Of a stretch of 56,190 nucleotides of DNA, positions 13,679 to 40,308 are shown in pieces (the first letter of the stretch is position 1; each line of letters starts with the position of its first letter). Made by a program: the position numbers and the translations under genes. A model generated the notes under the pieces. That model had not been told where the DNA came from and did no database searches. It was given only the letters and a program-made list of their open reading frames with translations. Location: positions 1-56,190 of the forward strand of contig CANBER010000003.1 of assembly GCA_947367795.1 (NCBI GenBank), given 5' to 3'. The DNA is from an uncultured Candidatus Saccharibacteria bacterium. GTDB lineage: Bacteria > Patescibacteriota > Saccharimonadia > Saccharimonadales > Saccharimonadaceae.

Positions 13679-15010
13679 CTAGAGTATTACTTCTACATGA
13701 AATTTTTTACCGATCTCAACCACCTTACGAGTATGTTTATTGTAAATAAAATATTTTATCCAGTGGGTTCCATCATATGATTCGGTTTCATGATTTATAA
13801 ATTCGTTCGAGCTAGAACCCTCTATACCATCTCTACCTCTAGCTTTAAATAAGTTACCCCGTCTGCCTTTAGAGCCGACGGCATTAAGTACTTGCCATCT
13901 TATACCGTAATCTGTCTTATTATAATCGGTGGATGCTATAAATTTTAATGGTTTGCCTTTGCCGAGGAACTTATACCATGTTTTCTTCATAGTATATGCT
14001 TTCTTGTCACATTCCGAAATATCTTTCTTTTTGAGAGAACCATCGAGTTCAATGCCTAAATTGCGATTCCTTAGTGCTTCGAGACATTCTGGGTAGTCAG
14101 ATAGGGCATTTGGGAAGTCGCTACTCAGATGAACTCTAATCTTGTTTAGATCAGGTTCATCCTTGCAAATGAGTTCACCCTCAAGAACCGCCAAACACTC
14201 CTGAAATGTAACCCTAATAATATCGCAATCGGTTGGTTTTATCTTTATAGCTAGATTCTCGTTAACCGTAGGCATAGTTATCACAATTTGACCATACGGC
14301 TTACTAAAAATTTTAACTATTTCTTTAACGACCAAAATAAGATCTTCAGCATATGACAATGTCTGTTTATAGGACGAACATACTATAGCCATGATGCATA
14401 TCGAAGGAAACTTATCTGTCAATTCTGCGTAATCACGAATTCTTTTCAGAATTACTATAAGAGCTTGCACGAAGCGTTTCTCCTCTGCATACTCAAGAAA
14501 CCATTCTTTTAACCTCTTAGTGTCACTATCAGCCCAACGGTCTTGACTCCTTCTTGCAACATATCTACAGACACCATCCAATCGCGATAATACTGGTACA
14601 TAGTCGGCATGGAATAAAACTTCAGTTTGCAAATCCCGAGAGTGATACACTCGCTCACAGCTTTCACGCTTTTTGTTATCTACTTTATCAGTATATTCAT
14701 TTACCAATATATTATGTGTGTCAGCCAGTGACTTGGCTGGTCCATTCCACTCCTCTCGCTCTAGCACGATATCTATATCATATTCTCCCCCAATGCCGCT
14801 TTTGCTTTGGTTTGCAGTTAGTGGTTTTACAATTGTACCCATGGCATATGACCCCTGAGTATAGACGTCTAGATCAGCGTAGTTTGACATAAAGATAGCA
14901 ATAGCCTCGCTTAAAGTCTCGTCTATTCTGACGGCTTGGGTTTGCGTTAAGGCTATATTGACCAAAAAATCTTCGAAGAGCGTATCATACCTACGTAAAT
15001 CTTTACACAT
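13679..15010 (-). CDS. CBASS CD-NTase (cyclic oligonucleotide synthase)
   Basis: This 443-residue protein has the nucleotidyltransferase signature QGSYAMGT (Gly53-Ser54), the metal-binding pair in GGEYDID (Asp78 and Asp80) and a third acidic residue Asp136 in HADYVPV. The C-terminal part (LKFIASTDYN, DYGIRWQV, RGNLF, GTHWIKYFIYN, FHVEV) matches the AGS-C sensor domain that accompanies CD-NTases. On phage infection such enzymes make cyclic di- or trinucleotides that switch on an effector. The ATG overlaps the end of the upstream membrane-protein gene by eight bases, so effector and cyclase are coupled. Cap2 and Cap3 accessory genes are absent, so it would be a minimal (type I) system. Confidence 0.85.
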   Translation of the reverse strand: MCKDLRRYDTLFEDFLVNIALTQTQAVRIDETLSEAIAIFMSNYADLDVYTQGSYAMGTIVKPLTANQSKSGIGGEYDIDIVLEREEWNGPAKSLADTHNILVNEYTDKVDNKKRESCERVYHSRDLQTEVLFHADYVPVLSRLDGVCRYVARRSQDRWADSDTKRLKEWFLEYAEEKRFVQALIVILKRIRDYAELTDKFPSICIMAIVCSSYKQTLSYAEDLILVVKEIVKIFSKPYGQIVITMPTVNENLAIKIKPTDCDIIRVTFQECLAVLEGELICKDEPDLNKIRVHLSSDFPNALSDYPECLEALRNRNLGIELDGSLKKKDISECDKKAYTMKKTWYKFLGKGKPLKFIASTDYNKTDYGIRWQVLNAVGSKGRRGNLFKARGRDGIEGSSSNEFINHETESYDGTHWIKYFIYNKHTRKVVEIGKKFHVEVIL

Positions 15011-34093: not shown

Positions 34094-35893
34094 CTAGAAA
34101 TCATTAGACTCATGAACATGAGCCCGAATGGTGCGGACCGGGCACTCCAGATCGCGCAGACGCTGAGCGGCAGCGTTCAGATGCTTGCCCTTGGTGCCGA
34201 TAACGTATCCGACGTCATCCTTATGAACATCGAGGTGGAGTACGCCGTTTTTCAGGCGTTTGACACGCTCAACGTTTATCAGATAGTCAGACGTACGACC
34301 TTCGATCACCAGAACACGACCGTCGCTTGTACGTAAGGTGCCGATCTCCTCGCCGGTGATAGTGCGAGCTTTGTACTCGCCATCACAAGGCGAAGATCCA
34401 CGACCAACGCGTACGGACAGCTTGCCGCTCTGCTGGACGAACTGGACAACCTGCTCACTGCTCTCGGTTTGCTGTCTCTCAGCCTGAGCTTTGAGAGTGG
34501 CGATACGCTCGTCCTCCGCCTGAATCCAAGCTAAGCCTGGGGCGAAGTTCAGCTCCTGGTACACGTGGCGCATGTGGTGATTAACACGCTCGCCCCTGAA
34601 AGAGAAGGCGGTCTTTTCACACAGCATTTCCGCCAGCTTTGTGTCTGGGATGCCAGACGATATTCCGACCTTCAGGGCAAACGCCGTCATGATACTGCGC
34701 TCACCGGAGGACTGACATTCAGCCCGACGAGAGATTGCCAGACACATGTCGTAATCCCCCTGCTCCAGTCCGGAATACTTGACGTCAAAGAGTTGGCTAA
34801 AGTAACCGACCCTAACGTGCCCGGGCTGACTACTCAGAACGCGCAACGCCGAACGCAACACATCTTCCGGAGTACAGGTGTGCAGTTGCCCTATAATCTG
34901 CTGCAGGTCGCAATAACCCAGCAGATAGGCATTATCTACCACCTTCCGTTCCAGGTCGGGTTGCGCCATGCAACGCCCGATGAACTGCCACTGTTCGCGA
35001 GTGTAGGCATGCTCTCCGCACTGAATCATGAGATCCAGGTCAGAGTCCTGCATCGCTTCAAGCGGCACTGAGCGCCAATTGATCCCCTGCGGGTAGTGAG
35101 CCCGAAAGAAATCAAGGTTATCAGGCGTTGCTCTGCAGTGGCGAAGCACCTGCCCAATCAGATCGCTGGGAAGATCGGTGATTAGATCTGCGACCTCCTC
35201 GAGACCAATCGGGTAGTAGCTGGACTTTTCCCGGCCAACATACTCGATCAGGGCCTGTTGCGCCCCTGGCGCTGTCACCTCGCCGGCAGCAATCATAGCT
35301 CGAAGGCTGACTGCCGGAAGTACGACGCGCTGCTCGAGCTGGAACAGCTCATCCGAGATCGAGCTCAAGTCTACCTTGAGCGTTTCCCCGTACGGCGTCA
35401 GATCACCGAAAGCCCGCGCCAGACGAAGCTGCTGACAGTCCGTGCCGCGCTCGTTGAAATGGTCGAGCGCCTGTTCCGCAGTGATGACTGCATCCTCCTC
35501 TGTGGCCAGATAGATGTGGCCGCCCAGAGTGAAACTGACAGTATCACCATCGCCGGTTCTATTCGCATGAGGATAAACCAGCGAATACACCGCAGGCTGC
35601 AACAGAGTCGCGCCCTTCAGCTTGAGACCTCCGACGATCTCGCCAAGGTGCTTCACGAGCTGATCCGCATCAGCCCACTCCACCGGAGATCTCCAGTCCG
35701 TCTGATAGCGGACTATGAGGTCGTAGGAATATCCTACTTCCTCCTGCCGCTGGCCGGTCAGGATGAACTCAGTGGTGGTCTCGACGTGGTAAGCGCTGCC
35801 GCGACGCATGCCGTCGTTGGATTCACTCTCTATCTCGGTGTACCCACCGCGCAGAGTGAAGTTGTCGAGTTCCTTACTAATGATAATTCTCAT
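34094..35893 (-). CDS. Large protein with C-terminal KH-like domain
   Basis: This 599-residue protein is not recognised as a whole. The last 60 residues (HLDVHKDDVGYVIGTKGKHLNAAAQRL...) contain the GxxG loop VIGTKGK of a KH RNA-binding domain. It is preceded by a beta-rich segment (EYKARTITGEEIGTLRTSDG). The N-terminal 170 residues are beta-rich, and the middle is helical and repeat-like (LPSDLIGQVLRHCRATPDNL, then similar helices). TAGGAGGGA precedes the ATG. It is a single-gene unit with its own terminator and a hairpin leader (35935-35962). RNA binding is likely; the rest is unknown. Confidence 0.75.
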   Translation of the reverse strand: MRIIISKELDNFTLRGGYTEIESESNDGMRRGSAYHVETTTEFILTGQRQEEVGYSYDLIVRYQTDWRSPVEWADADQLVKHLGEIVGGLKLKGATLLQPAVYSLVYPHANRTGDGDTVSFTLGGHIYLATEEDAVITAEQALDHFNERGTDCQQLRLARAFGDLTPYGETLKVDLSSISDELFQLEQRVVLPAVSLRAMIAAGEVTAPGAQQALIEYVGREKSSYYPIGLEEVADLITDLPSDLIGQVLRHCRATPDNLDFFRAHYPQGINWRSVPLEAMQDSDLDLMIQCGEHAYTREQWQFIGRCMAQPDLERKVVDNAYLLGYCDLQQIIGQLHTCTPEDVLRSALRVLSSQPGHVRVGYFSQLFDVKYSGLEQGDYDMCLAISRRAECQSSGERSIMTAFALKVGISSGIPDTKLAEMLCEKTAFSFRGERVNHHMRHVYQELNFAPGLAWIQAEDERIATLKAQAERQQTESSEQVVQFVQQSGKLSVRVGRGSSPCDGEYKARTITGEEIGTLRTSDGRVLVIEGRTSDYLINVERVKRLKNGVLHLDVHKDDVGYVIGTKGKHLNAAAQRLRDLECPVRTIRAHVHESNDF

Positions 35894-36063: not shown

Positions 36064-37029
36064 CTACGAAGCCGCTTTTACAGCGGCAGCTGCCAGGCGC
36101 AGTGCACCCTCACGGCTCTTCGCTCCGCAGATAAATCTGCCGGCGTGACAGAAGACTGCGTCTTCAACGCCAGTGACCTCTGCGAGGGCTGCGCCGTTCA
36201 GACCGCGCCACGCCTCGGGGAGAGGCTTGCGCTGGGCCTGAGGTGCGCCGACAGGCGGGATGGCCTGGACGTTCCACTGCCCCTGAAGGTTCCGGAATAC
36301 TCCATAGAGGAGCTCCTCGCCCTTCGGGTTGGTGGTCGCCAGGACAGTCTGGACCCAACCCCCGATGAACTGGGGGAGGACCATGATGCCGTCTTCAGCA
36401 GCCTGAATAGCCGCCTCCACCGTGTCACGGCCCTTGACCTCGGCGACACAAGACTTGATCGTCCTGGTCAGTACGAGGTGTGCCAGCTGGCAGGCTTCCA
36501 CGAATGACTCGTCCGCCGCTTCGTCCCAGTTGGGATTCAGCAGGGAGATCGCCGTCGAGACTGACATCTGGTCCCGGGTGCGGATGCCATAGTCGGCAGA
36601 GTCAATGCCCTTAATAAGCATGTCGTCCACCTTGGCTGCGGCCTCCTGCGCCTGCTCTCTGGTACAGTCGGTGAGTGCGAGGCAAGCCTCGACTCCGTAC
36701 TTATTCCAGATTAATCCCGCCGAGGAATACTGCGTGCCGTCCGGCCGCATCTCAGAGTATTCTCTCTGATGATGGTCGAAACGGCCCGCCTCCGGGTCAA
36801 AGACGCCCCCGACATCTACGATGTAGGCGTCATTAGAAGTCGCCTCCTCAATATCCTTCAGATTCCGTGTGCGATAAACGCTCACGCGATCCTCCAGCAC
36901 GCCGAGGATGGCGACCGCTGTGGTTTCGTCTCCGTGGTGCGGAGCGGGGTGGGTGACGACGTTAGCCTGTGCCACCGTGTTAACGATAACGAGTTCCGTA
37001 TTGCTAGTGTTGCTAGTGTACCGTCCCAT
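36064..37029 (-). CDS. MYG1/UPF0160-family metal-dependent hydrolase
   Basis: This 321-residue protein has the MYG1 signature: THPAPHHGDETTAVAIL, VYRTRN, AYIVDVGGVFDPEAGRFDHHQ and SSAGLIWNKYG, then a later metal-type motif around GIDSADYG. MYG1 relatives are DHH-like 3'-5' RNA exonucleases. The C-terminal WVQTVLATTNPKGEELLYGVF also fits. AAGGAGG precedes the ATG. Transcription should start near 37354 from the promoter at 37361-37389, giving a leader of about 325 bases with several hairpins. It is a single-gene cassette. Confidence 0.9.
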   Translation of the reverse strand: MGRYTSNTSNTELVIVNTVAQANVVTHPAPHHGDETTAVAILGVLEDRVSVYRTRNLKDIEEATSNDAYIVDVGGVFDPEAGRFDHHQREYSEMRPDGTQYSSAGLIWNKYGVEACLALTDCTREQAQEAAAKVDDMLIKGIDSADYGIRTRDQMSVSTAISLLNPNWDEAADESFVEACQLAHLVLTRTIKSCVAEVKGRDTVEAAIQAAEDGIMVLPQFIGGWVQTVLATTNPKGEELLYGVFRNLQGQWNVQAIPPVGAPQAQRKPLPEAWRGLNGAALAEVTGVEDAVFCHAGRFICGAKSREGALRLAAAAVKAAS

Positions 37030-37101
37030 AGATCCTCCTTCGCGCCCTGTCTGCCGGACGCTGGCATCAAATGATAAAGTTAGGTGCCGCAGAATCGCCC
37101 A

Positions 37102-37131
37102 AACTCCTGCCTAGCGTAACTAGGGATGAGT
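37102..37131 (-). promoter_or_regulatory. Conserved leader hairpin, MYG1 copy
   Basis: On the minus strand the order is AACTC, CCTAG, loop TTACG, CTAGG, GAGTT: two nested stems. The same element with one change in the internal loop lies at 39293-39324 upstream of the 90-residue gene. Confidence 0.65.
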
Positions 37132-37182
37132 TGTCTCGCGTCTGCGCGCTATGAAATTCGGCCCACACTTACTGCGTTTACG

Positions 37183-37240
37183 CTCGAAGTGGGGATAGAC
37201 ACAGACAGACTGTAGATGTCTACATGTATCCCACTTCGAG
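37183..37240. promoter_or_regulatory. Long hairpin in the MYG1 leader
   Basis: CTCGAAGTGGGGATA and TATCCCACTTCGAG pair with one bulge, and TGTAGATGTCTACA lies in the loop as a further palindrome. Confidence 0.6.
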
Positions 37241-37296
37241 TTTGGCGTGCAACTTCGTATGAGGATTTAACGTACTTAAGCTTCTAAGGTAGTTGC

Positions 37297-37334
37297 GGTT
37301 CGATTTGATCGAACCGGGTTATATGAATATAACC
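37297..37334. promoter_or_regulatory. Two adjacent palindromes in the MYG1 leader
   Basis: GGTTCGAT-TTG-ATCGAACC (37297-37315) is followed after one base by GGTTATAT-GA-ATATAACC (37317-37334). Both stems are perfect. Confidence 0.6.
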
Positions 37335-37338
37335 GTAA

Positions 37339-37500
37339 GCCTTATCAAGCTTATGACTACATTGTAGCATACATTGCTGGAAATGTCAATAGGTTTTTGA
37401 TATTTTGGGAGAAGGTGCAAGAATATGTTGAAAATAACAGGGGTGAATGAGTGAATTGTAATTATGATTATTTTGTCAAAATCATATTGACAAAAGCGCG
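37339..37500. repeat. Duplicated regulatory region R1
   Basis: About 155 bases (from TCAAGCTTAT to TTGACAAAAGCG) are almost identical to 39372-39525. The two copies carry the minus-strand promoter and the TTTTGTCAA/TTGACAAAA palindrome (37471-37495). A second matching block lies at 37099-37160 versus 39291-39352. Confidence 0.85.
37361..37389 (-). promoter_or_regulatory. Promoter of the MYG1-family gene
   Basis: TTGACA, 17 bases ending TGC, TACAAT on the minus strand. It is nearly identical to the promoter at 39389-39417. Confidence 0.8.
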
Positions 37501-37506
37501 AATGTA

Positions 37507-38805
37507 TCAAGCTTTTGATTTTGCAGCGAGGAGCTCGTCGACTTTAGCCTCGCATAAAGGCTCTACTTCATCAATAAAATGTCTGATACGATTTTGGTTG
37601 AGGCCAGAAACAATACAAGTGATGTTCTCTCCTTCAGAATAATCATAAGTTTCACCCATATCATGATGGCTATAAATCCAGTCCATTCTGAGGTCAGCAA
37701 TGAAGAGATCATCGTAGTGCTTCAGGGTTTGATTGATAACATCACGGATAGGTTCTGGAACACCATCCTTTCCAGTAAGTCCAAGGTCGCTTGCGAAAAT
37801 ACCGAAAGATTCGCTATAAATCTTCTCGGCGTTTTCTGAGTCAAAACTAAGGGCGGCGACCATTTTTGAATAGTCTTCCATGGCGTCTTGGTGGAGATGG
37901 GGATAAATCTGGTGCATTTCGTGCATAATCCGATTAACTCCATTATAGATGTCATAGGTATTGGCAGCCCACACATCGGTGTCCTTGTCGGGGAGATGAT
38001 CGACAATGTCATAATTGACTGAGACGTAATCATCTTCCACATCAGAATAATCCAGATCTAGGTCAACGGTTTCGTACTGAGCACCAAATCCAAGTTTTTG
38101 ATTGATCTCCCGTTTATCAAACTCTCGAGGCGCAGTATACAGGGCCAGGGTGGCATAGGAACTGCGCAGCGCGTCATAAGATTCATTAGCTTCTAGAAGA
38201 GACTCTCGACAATCTTGCACTACGTCCAGCAATTCAAGAGGCACAACATTAAGTAGCTCGGTAGATGTTTGATCGATTTTGGCGACACGATTTTCTTCGA
38301 CATCAATGCCACAAATCACACGTTCTTCTGGAGAAAGTGTAGCAATAAGAGCACGCAAAGGAATCTTGAAAGAAGTATCATTCCGGTCGCTGTCATAGAG
38401 AGCGTCATATTTATGAGTCAACGCTGTTGTTAGCATTGGGTCGCAATTGCGACGATTTCTGGCGGCAGTCTCAAGTTGATGTAAACCCTTTTCATGGCCA
38501 TAAGCGATTTTTTCCGTACGTTCGATATAGCGTTCTGTAAGCTCCGCCTGGAATGCAAGGCGCTGCTCAGGGGTCTTAAGGGACCTGAGAACTTGGTGTG
38601 ACTGACGTTTTAGGTCACTGTAGATTTCACTCGCTGCTTTTGCTTCAGGGGAGTGCCAGTTGCTATCGATGGAGGAATGGATGACTTGATAGTCTGCATA
38701 GGTGTCTTGGTATTCTTGCCAGAGCTTACGAGTCTCGACACTATAACCGAGTTCAGGTGCTGGTTTGATTTCTGATGAGTCATAGTTCAATAGTCGTTCG
38801 CTCAT
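37507..38805 (-). CDS. Hypothetical helical protein
   Basis: This 432-residue acidic, helical protein has no recognised domain. It has long stretches of E/D/K-rich helix and repeated Tyr-Asp segments (VDLDLDYSDVEDDYVSVNYD). There is no signal peptide or membrane helix. AAGGAAAAA precedes the ATG, and TATAAT lies 27 bases upstream. Its stop codon is seven bases from copy R1 of a duplicated regulatory region, so the gene lies exactly between the two copies. Confidence 0.72.
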   Translation of the reverse strand: MSERLLNYDSSEIKPAPELGYSVETRKLWQEYQDTYADYQVIHSSIDSNWHSPEAKAASEIYSDLKRQSHQVLRSLKTPEQRLAFQAELTERYIERTEKIAYGHEKGLHQLETAARNRRNCDPMLTTALTHKYDALYDSDRNDTSFKIPLRALIATLSPEERVICGIDVEENRVAKIDQTSTELLNVVPLELLDVVQDCRESLLEANESYDALRSSYATLALYTAPREFDKREINQKLGFGAQYETVDLDLDYSDVEDDYVSVNYDIVDHLPDKDTDVWAANTYDIYNGVNRIMHEMHQIYPHLHQDAMEDYSKMVAALSFDSENAEKIYSESFGIFASDLGLTGKDGVPEPIRDVINQTLKHYDDLFIADLRMDWIYSHHDMGETYDYSEGENITCIVSGLNQNRIRHFIDEVEPLCEAKVDELLAAKSKA

Positions 38806-38870
38806 GTATTTTTCCTTACGTTTATTTTATTATACAATGCATGTTTATCAAAACAAGTATTATGAAAAAT

Positions 38871-38891
38871 CCCCGACATATTGCGTCGGGG
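38871..38891 (-). terminator. Terminator of the 90-residue gene
   Basis: CCCCGAC and GTCGGGG form the stem; on the minus strand ATTTTTC follows. Confidence 0.85.
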
Positions 38892-38931
38892 ACGACAGTT
38901 ACTTTGCGCTGAAGTCTGCCACTCCAGATAA

Positions 38932-39204
38932 TTACCAGAAACTGGATACCATGATGCGGTTGCACCCGCTTTCCGTTGTCATGGACCGGAGATCGTCGGC
39001 AGCGTCGCTAGCTGCCTGCTCTGAGAAACAGACTCTATTGGGCGTGTAATCCGCGTAGACACAAGGATCGTCCAGCTCAACGGTACCTACCACGTAAACC
39101 TTGCTCCTCACCCCATTAATGATGTCATCCAGAGCCTCAGCTCTTTCGTTTTCGTCCATCATATTCAGAGCCTTTACGATCTTCTCGACATCAAGCTTTC
39201 TCAT
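38932..39204 (-). CDS. 90-residue hypothetical protein
   Basis: The start at 39204 (MRKLDVEKIVKALNMM) is set by GGTGAGGAA directly upstream. The N-terminal third is helical and acidic (DENERAEALDDIINGV), and the rest is beta-rich. No family is recognised. It has its own terminator (38871-38891), and a leader of about 178 bases with the same hairpin as the MYG1 leader. The promoter at 39389-39417 drives it, so it is probably co-regulated with MYG1. Confidence 0.68.
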   Translation of the reverse strand: MRKLDVEKIVKALNMMDENERAEALDDIINGVRSKVYVVGTVELDDPCVYADYTPNRVCFSEQAASDAADDLRSMTTESGCNRIMVSSFW

Positions 39205-39292
39205 TTCCTCACCTTCCCCGCTCAAGCTGAATGGGGGTCCTTTCATTTTAAAGATTAGGCTTTAGGCCCCGCGGCCGGCCACAGGATCACTC

Positions 39293-39324
39293 AAACTCCT
39301 GCCTAGCGTAACTAGGGCTGAGTT
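39293..39324 (-). promoter_or_regulatory. Conserved leader hairpin, copy upstream of the 90-residue gene
   Basis: AACTC, CCTAG, loop TTACG, CTAGG, GAGTT on the minus strand. Same nested stems as at 37102-37131. Confidence 0.65.
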
Positions 39325-39371
39325 ATATTGTGCCTGTGCGCTATGAAGTTTCTATGCTAATGTTCGGCTTT

Positions 39372-39525
39372 CTCAAGCTTATAGCTACATTGTAGCACGC
39401 ATTGCTGAAAATGTCAATAGGTCTTTGATATTTTGGGAGAAGGTTCAAAAATATGTTGAAAATAACAGGGGTGAATGAGTGAATTGTAATTATGATTATT
39501 TTGTCAAAATCATATTGACAAAAGC
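39372..39525. repeat. Duplicated regulatory region R2
   Basis: This copy is the divergent intergenic region between the TrmB-like gene and the 90-residue gene. It is nearly identical to 37339-37500. It contains a minus-strand promoter (TTGACA, 17 bases, TACAAT, 39417-39389) and the palindrome at 39499-39523. Confidence 0.85.
39499..39523. promoter_or_regulatory. Operator-like palindrome over the TrmB-like gene promoter
   Basis: TTTTGTCAA, seven bases, TTGACAAAA is a perfect 9-bp inverted repeat whose right arm contains the -35 hexamer of the promoter below. Binding here would block that promoter. Confidence 0.7.
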
Positions 39526-39543
39526 GGAATAGTTTGATATAAT
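39515..39543 (+). promoter_or_regulatory. Consensus promoter of the TrmB-like gene
   Basis: TTGACA (39515-39520), 17 bases, TATAAT (39538-39543), then nine bases to the ATG at 39553. Transcription should start two or three bases before the ATG. Confidence 0.88.
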
Positions 39544-39552
39544 GAGATCATT

Positions 39553-40308
39553 ATGGATATTGAATTAGTGCAAAAAGCTGGTCTGACGAAGCCTCAAGCG
39601 ACGGTTTATGTGACGCTAGTGCAGAGTGGACCATTGACGCCGGCGGAGATAGCGGAGCGGACGGGAGAGACGAGAACGAACACTTATGCTTTGCTCAATA
39701 AGTTGGAGCAGCTGCACCTAGTACGGAATATCGGGCAAAAGACTGCTCGATACCAGGCGGAGAACCCGGCGAATCTAGAGGTTCTGGCAGAGAAGCGCCG
39801 AAAAATTATCAGCAAGAATGAGCAGGAGCTGAAAGGTGGAATGTCGGCACTGCTTGATCTGTTTTATGCGCACAACGAGGCACCGGGGAGTCGTACGTTG
39901 ACGGGGCGAGATGGAATTAAGGAAATTCACCACGATGTAATCAATACGGGTGAAACGGTGTATTTGATCCGGACGCCGTTTGATTCGAAGTACGATGATT
40001 TGATTAAAGTTTTTCGTGAGAGACGGGCAGCGAAAGGAATCAAAACTATTGCGCTGACTCCGGCGACACCACATGCTAAACAGTATATGACGGACGGGAC
40101 GGACGAAAAATACCGGTTTGAACGGACAATGATGCCGGAAGATGCGTATCAGAGTCCGGTAGAGATTATGATTTATGGCAAAAAGGTGGCACTGGTATCT
40201 TATGGTGAGGCGGAAATTGCCACGGTGATTACTTCCCCGCTAATTGCGGCAGCGTTTCGGGAGATTTTCTTGATGCTGCAAGATTATTGGAAGAGGGTTG
40301 AAGTTTAA
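39553..40308 (+). CDS. TrmB-family transcriptional regulator
   Basis: This 251-residue protein starts with a winged helix-turn-helix: GLTKPQATVYVTLVQSGPLT, AEIAERTGETRTNTYALLNK. It continues with a coiled linker and a C-terminal sensor-like domain (TGRDGIKEIHHDVINTGETV). TrmB proteins respond to sugars or metabolites. The gene is leaderless from a consensus promoter whose -35 box lies in a perfect palindrome, so autorepression is likely. The same palindrome occurs in R1, which suggests a small regulon with the MYG1-family gene and the 90-residue gene. Confidence 0.85.
   Translation: MDIELVQKAGLTKPQATVYVTLVQSGPLTPAEIAERTGETRTNTYALLNKLEQLHLVRNIGQKTARYQAENPANLEVLAEKRRKIISKNEQELKGGMSALLDLFYAHNEAPGSRTLTGRDGIKEIHHDVINTGETVYLIRTPFDSKYDDLIKVFRERRAAKGIKTIALTPATPHAKQYMTDGTDEKYRFERTMMPEDAYQSPVEIMIYGKKVALVSYGEAEIATVITSPLIAAAFREIFLMLQDYWKRVEV

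Follow-up and report, generated by a model that had tools for sequence, protein, structure and literature searches.

Organization of the locus

The window, i.e., the whole 56,190-nucleotide stretch analyzed here (contig CANBER010000003.1 of an uncultured Candidatus Saccharibacteria bacterium), contains two copies of a regulatory region, denoted R1 and R2, which precede a MYG1-family gene and a small orphan gene, respectively, with another orphan in between and a TrmB-like regulator divergent from R2. The genes, promoters and upstream repeat blocks are as follows:

36064-37029, minus strand: MYG1-family gene (PF03690, Pfam E 4.4e-66), 321 aa, the gene behind R1
37339-37503, strand not assigned: upstream repeat block, R1 copy, with a 9+7+9 palindrome at 37471-37495 and a trmB-type -35 without a -10
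37361-37389, minus strand: R1 promoter TTGACA-17-TACAAT (-35 at 37389-37384, -10 at 37366-37361)
37507-38805, minus strand: orphan gene, 432 aa, between R1 and R2
38932-39204, minus strand: orphan gene, 90 aa (104 aa with an upstream ATG at 39246), the gene behind R2
39367-39530, strand not assigned: upstream repeat block, R2 copy, with the identical palindrome at 39499-39523
39389-39417, minus strand: R2 promoter TTGACA-17-TACAAT (-35 at 39417-39412, -10 at 39394-39389)
39515-39543, plus strand: promoter of the trmB-like gene, TTGACA-17-TATAAT, conserved in the related genome G024, with the palindrome spanning its -35
39553-40308, plus strand: TrmB-like regulator (PF01978, E 1.3e-12), 251 aa, divergent from R2

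Neither of the genes flanked by R1 and R2 was found in the relatives searched: the 90-aa protein is confined to its own genome among 119 relatives (1/119) and has no family match in Pfam, PHROGs, NCBIfam or PADLOC, and the 432-aa protein is likewise confined among 147 genus genomes (1/147), with no match in Pfam, PHROGs or NCBIfam and a single weak match in PADLOC (PbeC, E 0.0013). Between ackA and the MYG1 gene, the window also encodes a 599-aa protein (34094-35893) with only a weak, below-cutoff match to a KH domain.

R1 and R2 share two blocks in the same order. In a blastn comparison, the upstream block (37339-37503 vs 39367-39530) extends over 165 nt at 93.3% identity and the hairpin block (37086-37158 vs 39278-39350) over 73 nt at 83.6%; a repeat search of the window returned the same pairs (37339-37498 and 39367-39526, 94%; 37086-37158 and 39278-39350, 84%). 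Because identity extends over such lengths, the likeness is not due to chance, and the duplication is real. The earlier description of the two copies as nearly identical suits the upstream block but overstates the similarity of the hairpin block. The spacing between the blocks is about 180 nt in R1 and about 16-20 nt in R2, since the central part of a larger leader is missing from R2.

The minus-strand promoter and the nested hairpin AACTC..CCTAG-TTACG-CTAGG..GAGTT reported in the earlier note are present in both copies (the hairpin at 37102-37132 and 39294-39324), and R2 indeed doubles as the promoter region of the trmB-like gene (plus-strand TTGACA at 39515, a 17-nt spacer, TATAAT at 39538); R1 keeps the trmB-type -35 but no -10. 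The further notion of two cassettes under one promoter and one leader hairpin stands as far as a duplicated regulatory region before two units is concerned. It holds only in part for a single leader, given that the shared hairpin is the 3' third of a leader of about 275 nt that is complete only in R1.

Nor is the promoter private to this pair: the same genome contains seven additional matches to the promoter or the sequence around it, and the promoter class alone is common. It resembles housekeeping extended -10 promoters (TTGACA-17 with TGN before TAYAAT), from which the R1/R2 unit differs in that it travels with a specific RNA and is repeated as a unit. Since the two promoters are equivalent in sequence, similar basal transcription of the MYG1-family and 90-aa genes is likely, and their co-regulation, which the earlier note proposed, is possible through the promoter.

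The leader RNA and its structure

The complete leader consists, from 5' to 3', of a terminal stem (P1), an optional multi-hairpin extension, the motif AAGNACRTTAA, domain 2, domain 3, a G+C hairpin and the ribosome-binding site. Its parts in the two copies, all on the minus strand, are:

37267-37357: R1 leader domain 1, P1 (TAAGCTT 37353-37347 / AAGCTTA 37283-37277) enclosing an inner stem with two hairpins, followed by AAGNACRTTAA
37183-37240: R1 leader domain 2, a two-part stem CTCGAAGTGGG...CCCCACTTCGAG forming two stacked stems
37086-37155: R1 leader domain 3, an outer stem with the nested hairpin 37102-37132
37034-37061: R1 Shine-Dalgarno GGAGG with the G+C hairpin just upstream (37042-37061), from sequence
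39348-39385: 5' part of the R2 leader, a short 5' stem, lacking the P1 3' arm and domain 2
39278-39347: R2 leader domain 3 with the nested hairpin 39294-39324, from alignment and fold
39208-39236: R2 Shine-Dalgarno with the G+C hairpin just upstream (39216-39236), from the fold

P1 starts about 4-5 nt past the transcript start in complete copies, with the start (in R1) deduced from the -10. The P1 helix shows a paired change in G219:C9 (UAAACUU/AAGUUUA in place of UAAGCUU/AAGCUUA), and the insert between its arms can be as small as a short loop or comprise several hairpins. In domain 2, both-sided changes occur in 8 of the 17 pairs over seven sequences; 94% of the alignment cells are paired, compared to 36-46% in slid registers, and none of 500 shuffles matches the covariation score. 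In domain 3, 4 of 18 pairs show both-sided changes over four sequences and 98% of the cells are paired, with the covariation score equalled by 12 of 500 shuffles. These figures come from structures drawn by hand on alignments of seven (domain 2) and four (domain 3) sequences, some of them close kin (G044, G045, G134), and the shuffles ignore kinship; in the domain 3 count, the misaligned row G013:C5 was replaced by G219:C9, which is left out of the domain 2 count. As the compensatory changes exceed those in the slid and shuffled controls, the leader is a conserved structured RNA, and selection acts on its fold, at any rate where the copy is complete.

Folding of the R1 leader gives a z-score of -5.6 against shuffled sequences. 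For the R2 leader, the gain over shuffles is modest (z -2.0), and there is none for its first 85 nt (z 0.12); both values count against the cis-acting reading preferred below. Across the family, the first 85 nt have a median z of -3.3 (n=19) vs -1.4 (n=48) for other transcripts of the promoter class (p 0.002), a comparison that lends support although it is biased by the partly structure-based choice of the 19 sequences, and in which the z-scores come from a small custom script. Directly 5' of the Shine-Dalgarno sequence, the G+C hairpin is found in all 10 leaders folded; in the majority of these folds, the Shine-Dalgarno itself is mostly unpaired, and no terminator was noticed ahead of most downstream genes.

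The leader of G024 also matches the middle part of R1, with paired changes, so that R1 represents the full form and R2 one with an internal deletion. Since R2 has lost all of domain 2 as well as one arm (3') of the 5'-terminal stem, it need not share leader-level control with R1. Specific common control of the MYG1 and 90-aa genes by the leader RNA is thus not supported, because the promoter class serves many genes and most of the leader is missing from R2.

Extent of the leader family

A covariance model built from four leaders (R1, G024, G013:C5 and G043:C13), with the promoter left out, detected 13 places in 8 of 174 genus genomes (gut Saccharibacteria) at E<=0.001, a count that leaves out weak places in G061 and G159; in a smaller set of 118 genus genomes, 9 had a total of 12 sense places at E<=0.1. 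The complete form is therefore dispensable, being absent from 166 of the 174 genomes. When the search was extended to 294 genomes from 143 genera of the order, the three genomes that matched all belonged to the organism's own genus, and none of the other genera sampled yielded a model match.

A strong promoter of the form TTGAC[AT]-16/17-TAYAAT precedes all 13 of the places found at E<=0.001. At the E<=0.1 level it was seen for 11 of the 12 places, 31-32 nt 5' of the match, and not at G159; the three places in G219 also have it, in two cases farther upstream owing to extra helices.

Pattern searches are less specific. A census across the genus gave 32 matches in 23 of 174 genomes vs six for the reversed control, several of them one-mismatch matches without the rest of the leader. 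A scan of GTDB returned 63 stretches, 13 titled Saccharibacteria and 50 from other bacteria or archaea; a -35 at the right place was seen in none of the six inspected among the 50, and the remaining 44, searched with the model only, gave one match at E 7.1e-5 and another at E 0.43. The former is a contig titled Mogibacterium, from sheep jejunum, that starts with a G044-type leader (L144:1-80); this contig is probably mis-joined or mis-binned and was set aside. Of four pattern hits on viral sequence (IMG/VR), not one had a correctly placed -35 or matched the model. Two shorter markers were discarded: the hairpin alone (CCTAGNNANNCTAGG, one mismatch) gave 13 rows in a genome search against 10+7 for the reversed control and so does not define the family by itself, and the motif GCTTAAGNACRTTAA (two mismatches) gave 13 rows against 12, with only two exact ones in known leaders.

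No Rfam 15 family matched window positions 36900-39700 at E<=5, and ten other loci gave only tRNAs or below-cutoff matches, none on the leaders. The leader resembles the riboswitches and ribosomal-protein leaders of Rfam 15 in being a structured cis leader with compensatory changes, but it matches none of these families and has no fixed target pathway. A relationship to rRNA leaders or boxA was rejected, the leader being unlike the upstream region of the organism's 16S gene as read by eye. No report of the element was found in the literature searched; the main text of PMC8040213 mentions neither Saccharibacteria nor TM7. The leader with its promoter is, then, a real, uncatalogued, clade-restricted unit of a known kind, the structured 5' leader, and it is duplicated in the window.

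Other strong promoters of the genus (L033, L044, L047, L057, L058, L109 and others) head different long leaders that have motifs of their own in common, e.g., TAGTCTGAGTTTT and TTAACAATTAGCTAGGAAT; there may be several leader families in the genus.

Genes downstream of the leader

Rather than a two-gene regulon, the comparison with relatives reveals a general module, with the leader preceding at least eight different kinds of gene. MYG1 directly follows it in the window (R1), G013:C5 and G219:C9. Two pairs of downstream proteins are alike by eye, one of 161 and 166 aa (G024 and G219:C11) and the other of 218 and 245 aa (contig C21 of the genome studied here, behind a divergent leader, and G043:C13); other single genes encode proteins of 192 aa (G043:C1), 124 aa (G013:C9), 284 aa (G013:C18) and 180 aa (G219:C12). 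In G045 and G044, the leader heads an operon for a 111-aa protein, a Csx3-AAA-like protein, an HD hydrolase and MYG1, and G134 lacks the HD gene. The leaders of G024 and G013, with unrelated downstream genes, are 94% identical over 70 nt.

The operon (L101:2125-5826 in G045:C2, also in G044:C20, with parts in G134:C19) includes a small protein that matches PADLOC Unk_01 ("sometimes fused to CARF") and an HD hydrolase that is SpoT-like. This gene content suggests a set linked to cyclic nucleotides or to defence.

MYG1 and the leader co-occur above expectation (both in four genomes, MYG1 only in three, leader only in two, neither in 63; p 0.0005), with the caveat that the total of 72 same-genus genomes is an approximate count and that kinship is ignored. 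Autoregulation of MYG1 as a general role was rejected, given that G024 and G043 have the leader without MYG1.

Possible function of the leader

On balance, we consider it probable that R1 and R2 are copies of a modular unit, a promoter with a structured 5' leader, that acts in cis and within which recombination exchanges the downstream genes. In this unit, a strong extended -10 promoter is followed, at a fixed distance, by the leader RNA. The RNA would act on whichever gene lies downstream and confer strong expression, most likely because it shields the mRNA's 5' terminus and leaves the ribosome-binding site accessible. The position of P1 and the hairpin next to the Shine-Dalgarno fit a leader that works like the 5'-terminal stem-loop stabilizers of E. 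coli ompA and B. subtilis aprE, which likewise combine a structured leader starting near the transcript end with a strong Shine-Dalgarno (PMC7509114). Compared to these stabilizers, the leader in the window is far larger, has multiple domains and is conserved among unrelated genes and among species of a single clade. The same review reports that a stem-loop too close to the Shine-Dalgarno reduced the stability of ermC mRNA, which speaks against the portion of this reading that concerns the Shine-Dalgarno-proximal hairpin.

The main rival to a stabilizing or translational role is that the leader senses one signal, as a riboswitch-like or protein-bound RNA, and sets the expression of all downstream genes. 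The conservation of the unpaired AAGNACRTTAA and of an asymmetric GGGAUAC/GGAYACC loop amid changing helices points in this direction, and one RNA ahead of several genes resembles a regulon. However, there is no Rfam match, the downstream genes do not share a pathway, neither a terminator nor an alternative fold was seen that would make a clear switch, and the P1 arms enclose an extension of widely differing length. We regard sensing as unlikely, if worth keeping in mind.

Less probable still is a stand-alone small RNA, with downstream genes relying on read-through or promoters of their own. Such an arrangement is suggested by a copy elsewhere in the same genome (G000:C21:14370, around 14286-14391, L110), in which a terminator-like hairpin stands between polA and the promoter with the start of the leader, no obvious ORF lies ahead of polA, and polA has a promoter-like site of its own (hairpin and site by eye). 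Most copies, however, lead into a gene with a good Shine-Dalgarno, mostly 160-360 nt on, and the recurrence of the G+C hairpin in front of it in every leader folded also argues against an independent RNA.

The perfect palindrome TTTTGTCAA-7-TTGACAAAA, found at 37471-37495 and 39499-39523, in R2 over the -35 of trmB, is a possible operator for the TrmB-like protein, which might control both minus-strand units and itself by binding these 25 nt. In G024, where a single homologous region precedes the 161-aa gene and diverges from a TrmB-like gene 87% identical to that of the window, the palindrome is mostly retained. Nevertheless, some 80 bp separate it, on the upstream side, from the minus-strand -35, no trmB was seen beside the G013, G043 and G219 leaders in the stretches read, and its perfection in R1 is uninformative at 93% overall identity, which makes control of both units by TrmB improbable.

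We attach a similarly low probability to plain segmental duplication by recombination, under which the promoter alone would matter and the leader structure would have no regulatory role. Genome-unique genes flanked by direct repeats and the commonness of the promoter class agree with it, but the compensatory changes imply selection on the fold, at least in complete copies. Finally, an assembly artefact at the repeats, which the 38-contig draft state of the genome could invite, is very unlikely: over 5% of positions are not the same in R1 and R2, one domain is missing from R2, and independent assemblies repeat the adjacency of R1 and MYG1 (G013, G219) and the divergence of R2 from trmB (G024), a support that concerns these junctions and not those of the 432-aa gene with R1 or of R2 with the 90-aa gene.

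Possible recombination at the leader and chromosomal context

The interval between dnaK and ackA holds the leader in G013, G024, G043 and the window, and the gene that follows it varies (MYG1 in G013, those for the 161-aa and 192-aa proteins in G024 and G043). In G219, dnaK, a leader and the 166-aa gene lie near one contig end, and another contig opens with a leader, MYG1 and ackA; these contigs are unjoined, and two leaders in one dnaK-ackA interval, as in the window, would fit.

Under the preferred reading of a cis-acting modular unit, its repetition and independence of the downstream gene would allow homologous recombination to exchange or insert genes. A single crossover within the unit produces direct repeats around unique genes, the pattern seen here, as if the genes flanked by R1 and R2 had been brought in by recombination at the leader. 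Such an event would have put the 432-aa and 90-aa genes between the two copies, with R2 as the copy that lost the central domains. None of the genomes searched had an empty site, in which trmB, a leader and MYG1 would adjoin in the absence of the 432-aa and 90-aa genes. The repeat search of the window gave no terminal inverted repeats with target duplication around R1 or R2, the marks of an insertion element or MITE.

We further suggest, as a speculation that we ourselves consider doubtful, that the promoter-RNA unit is a mobile expression head, providing both a common expression signal and the homology for capture or swap of accessory genes. It would act at fixed chromosomal sites, notably dnaK-ackA, as a cassette system without a dedicated recombinase in bacteria with reduced genomes, an equally tentative proposal.

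To our knowledge, regulatory RNA is poorly characterized in Patescibacteria. Genomes of this genus are about 1 Mb or less, and the maintenance of a complex leader across unrelated genes in such small genomes points to a common layer of post-transcriptional control or a high-expression signal. The leader marks accessory genes worth study. Riboswitches have been put forward as promising candidates for expression tools (PMC11665869), and the leader could likewise be used as a component of such tools.
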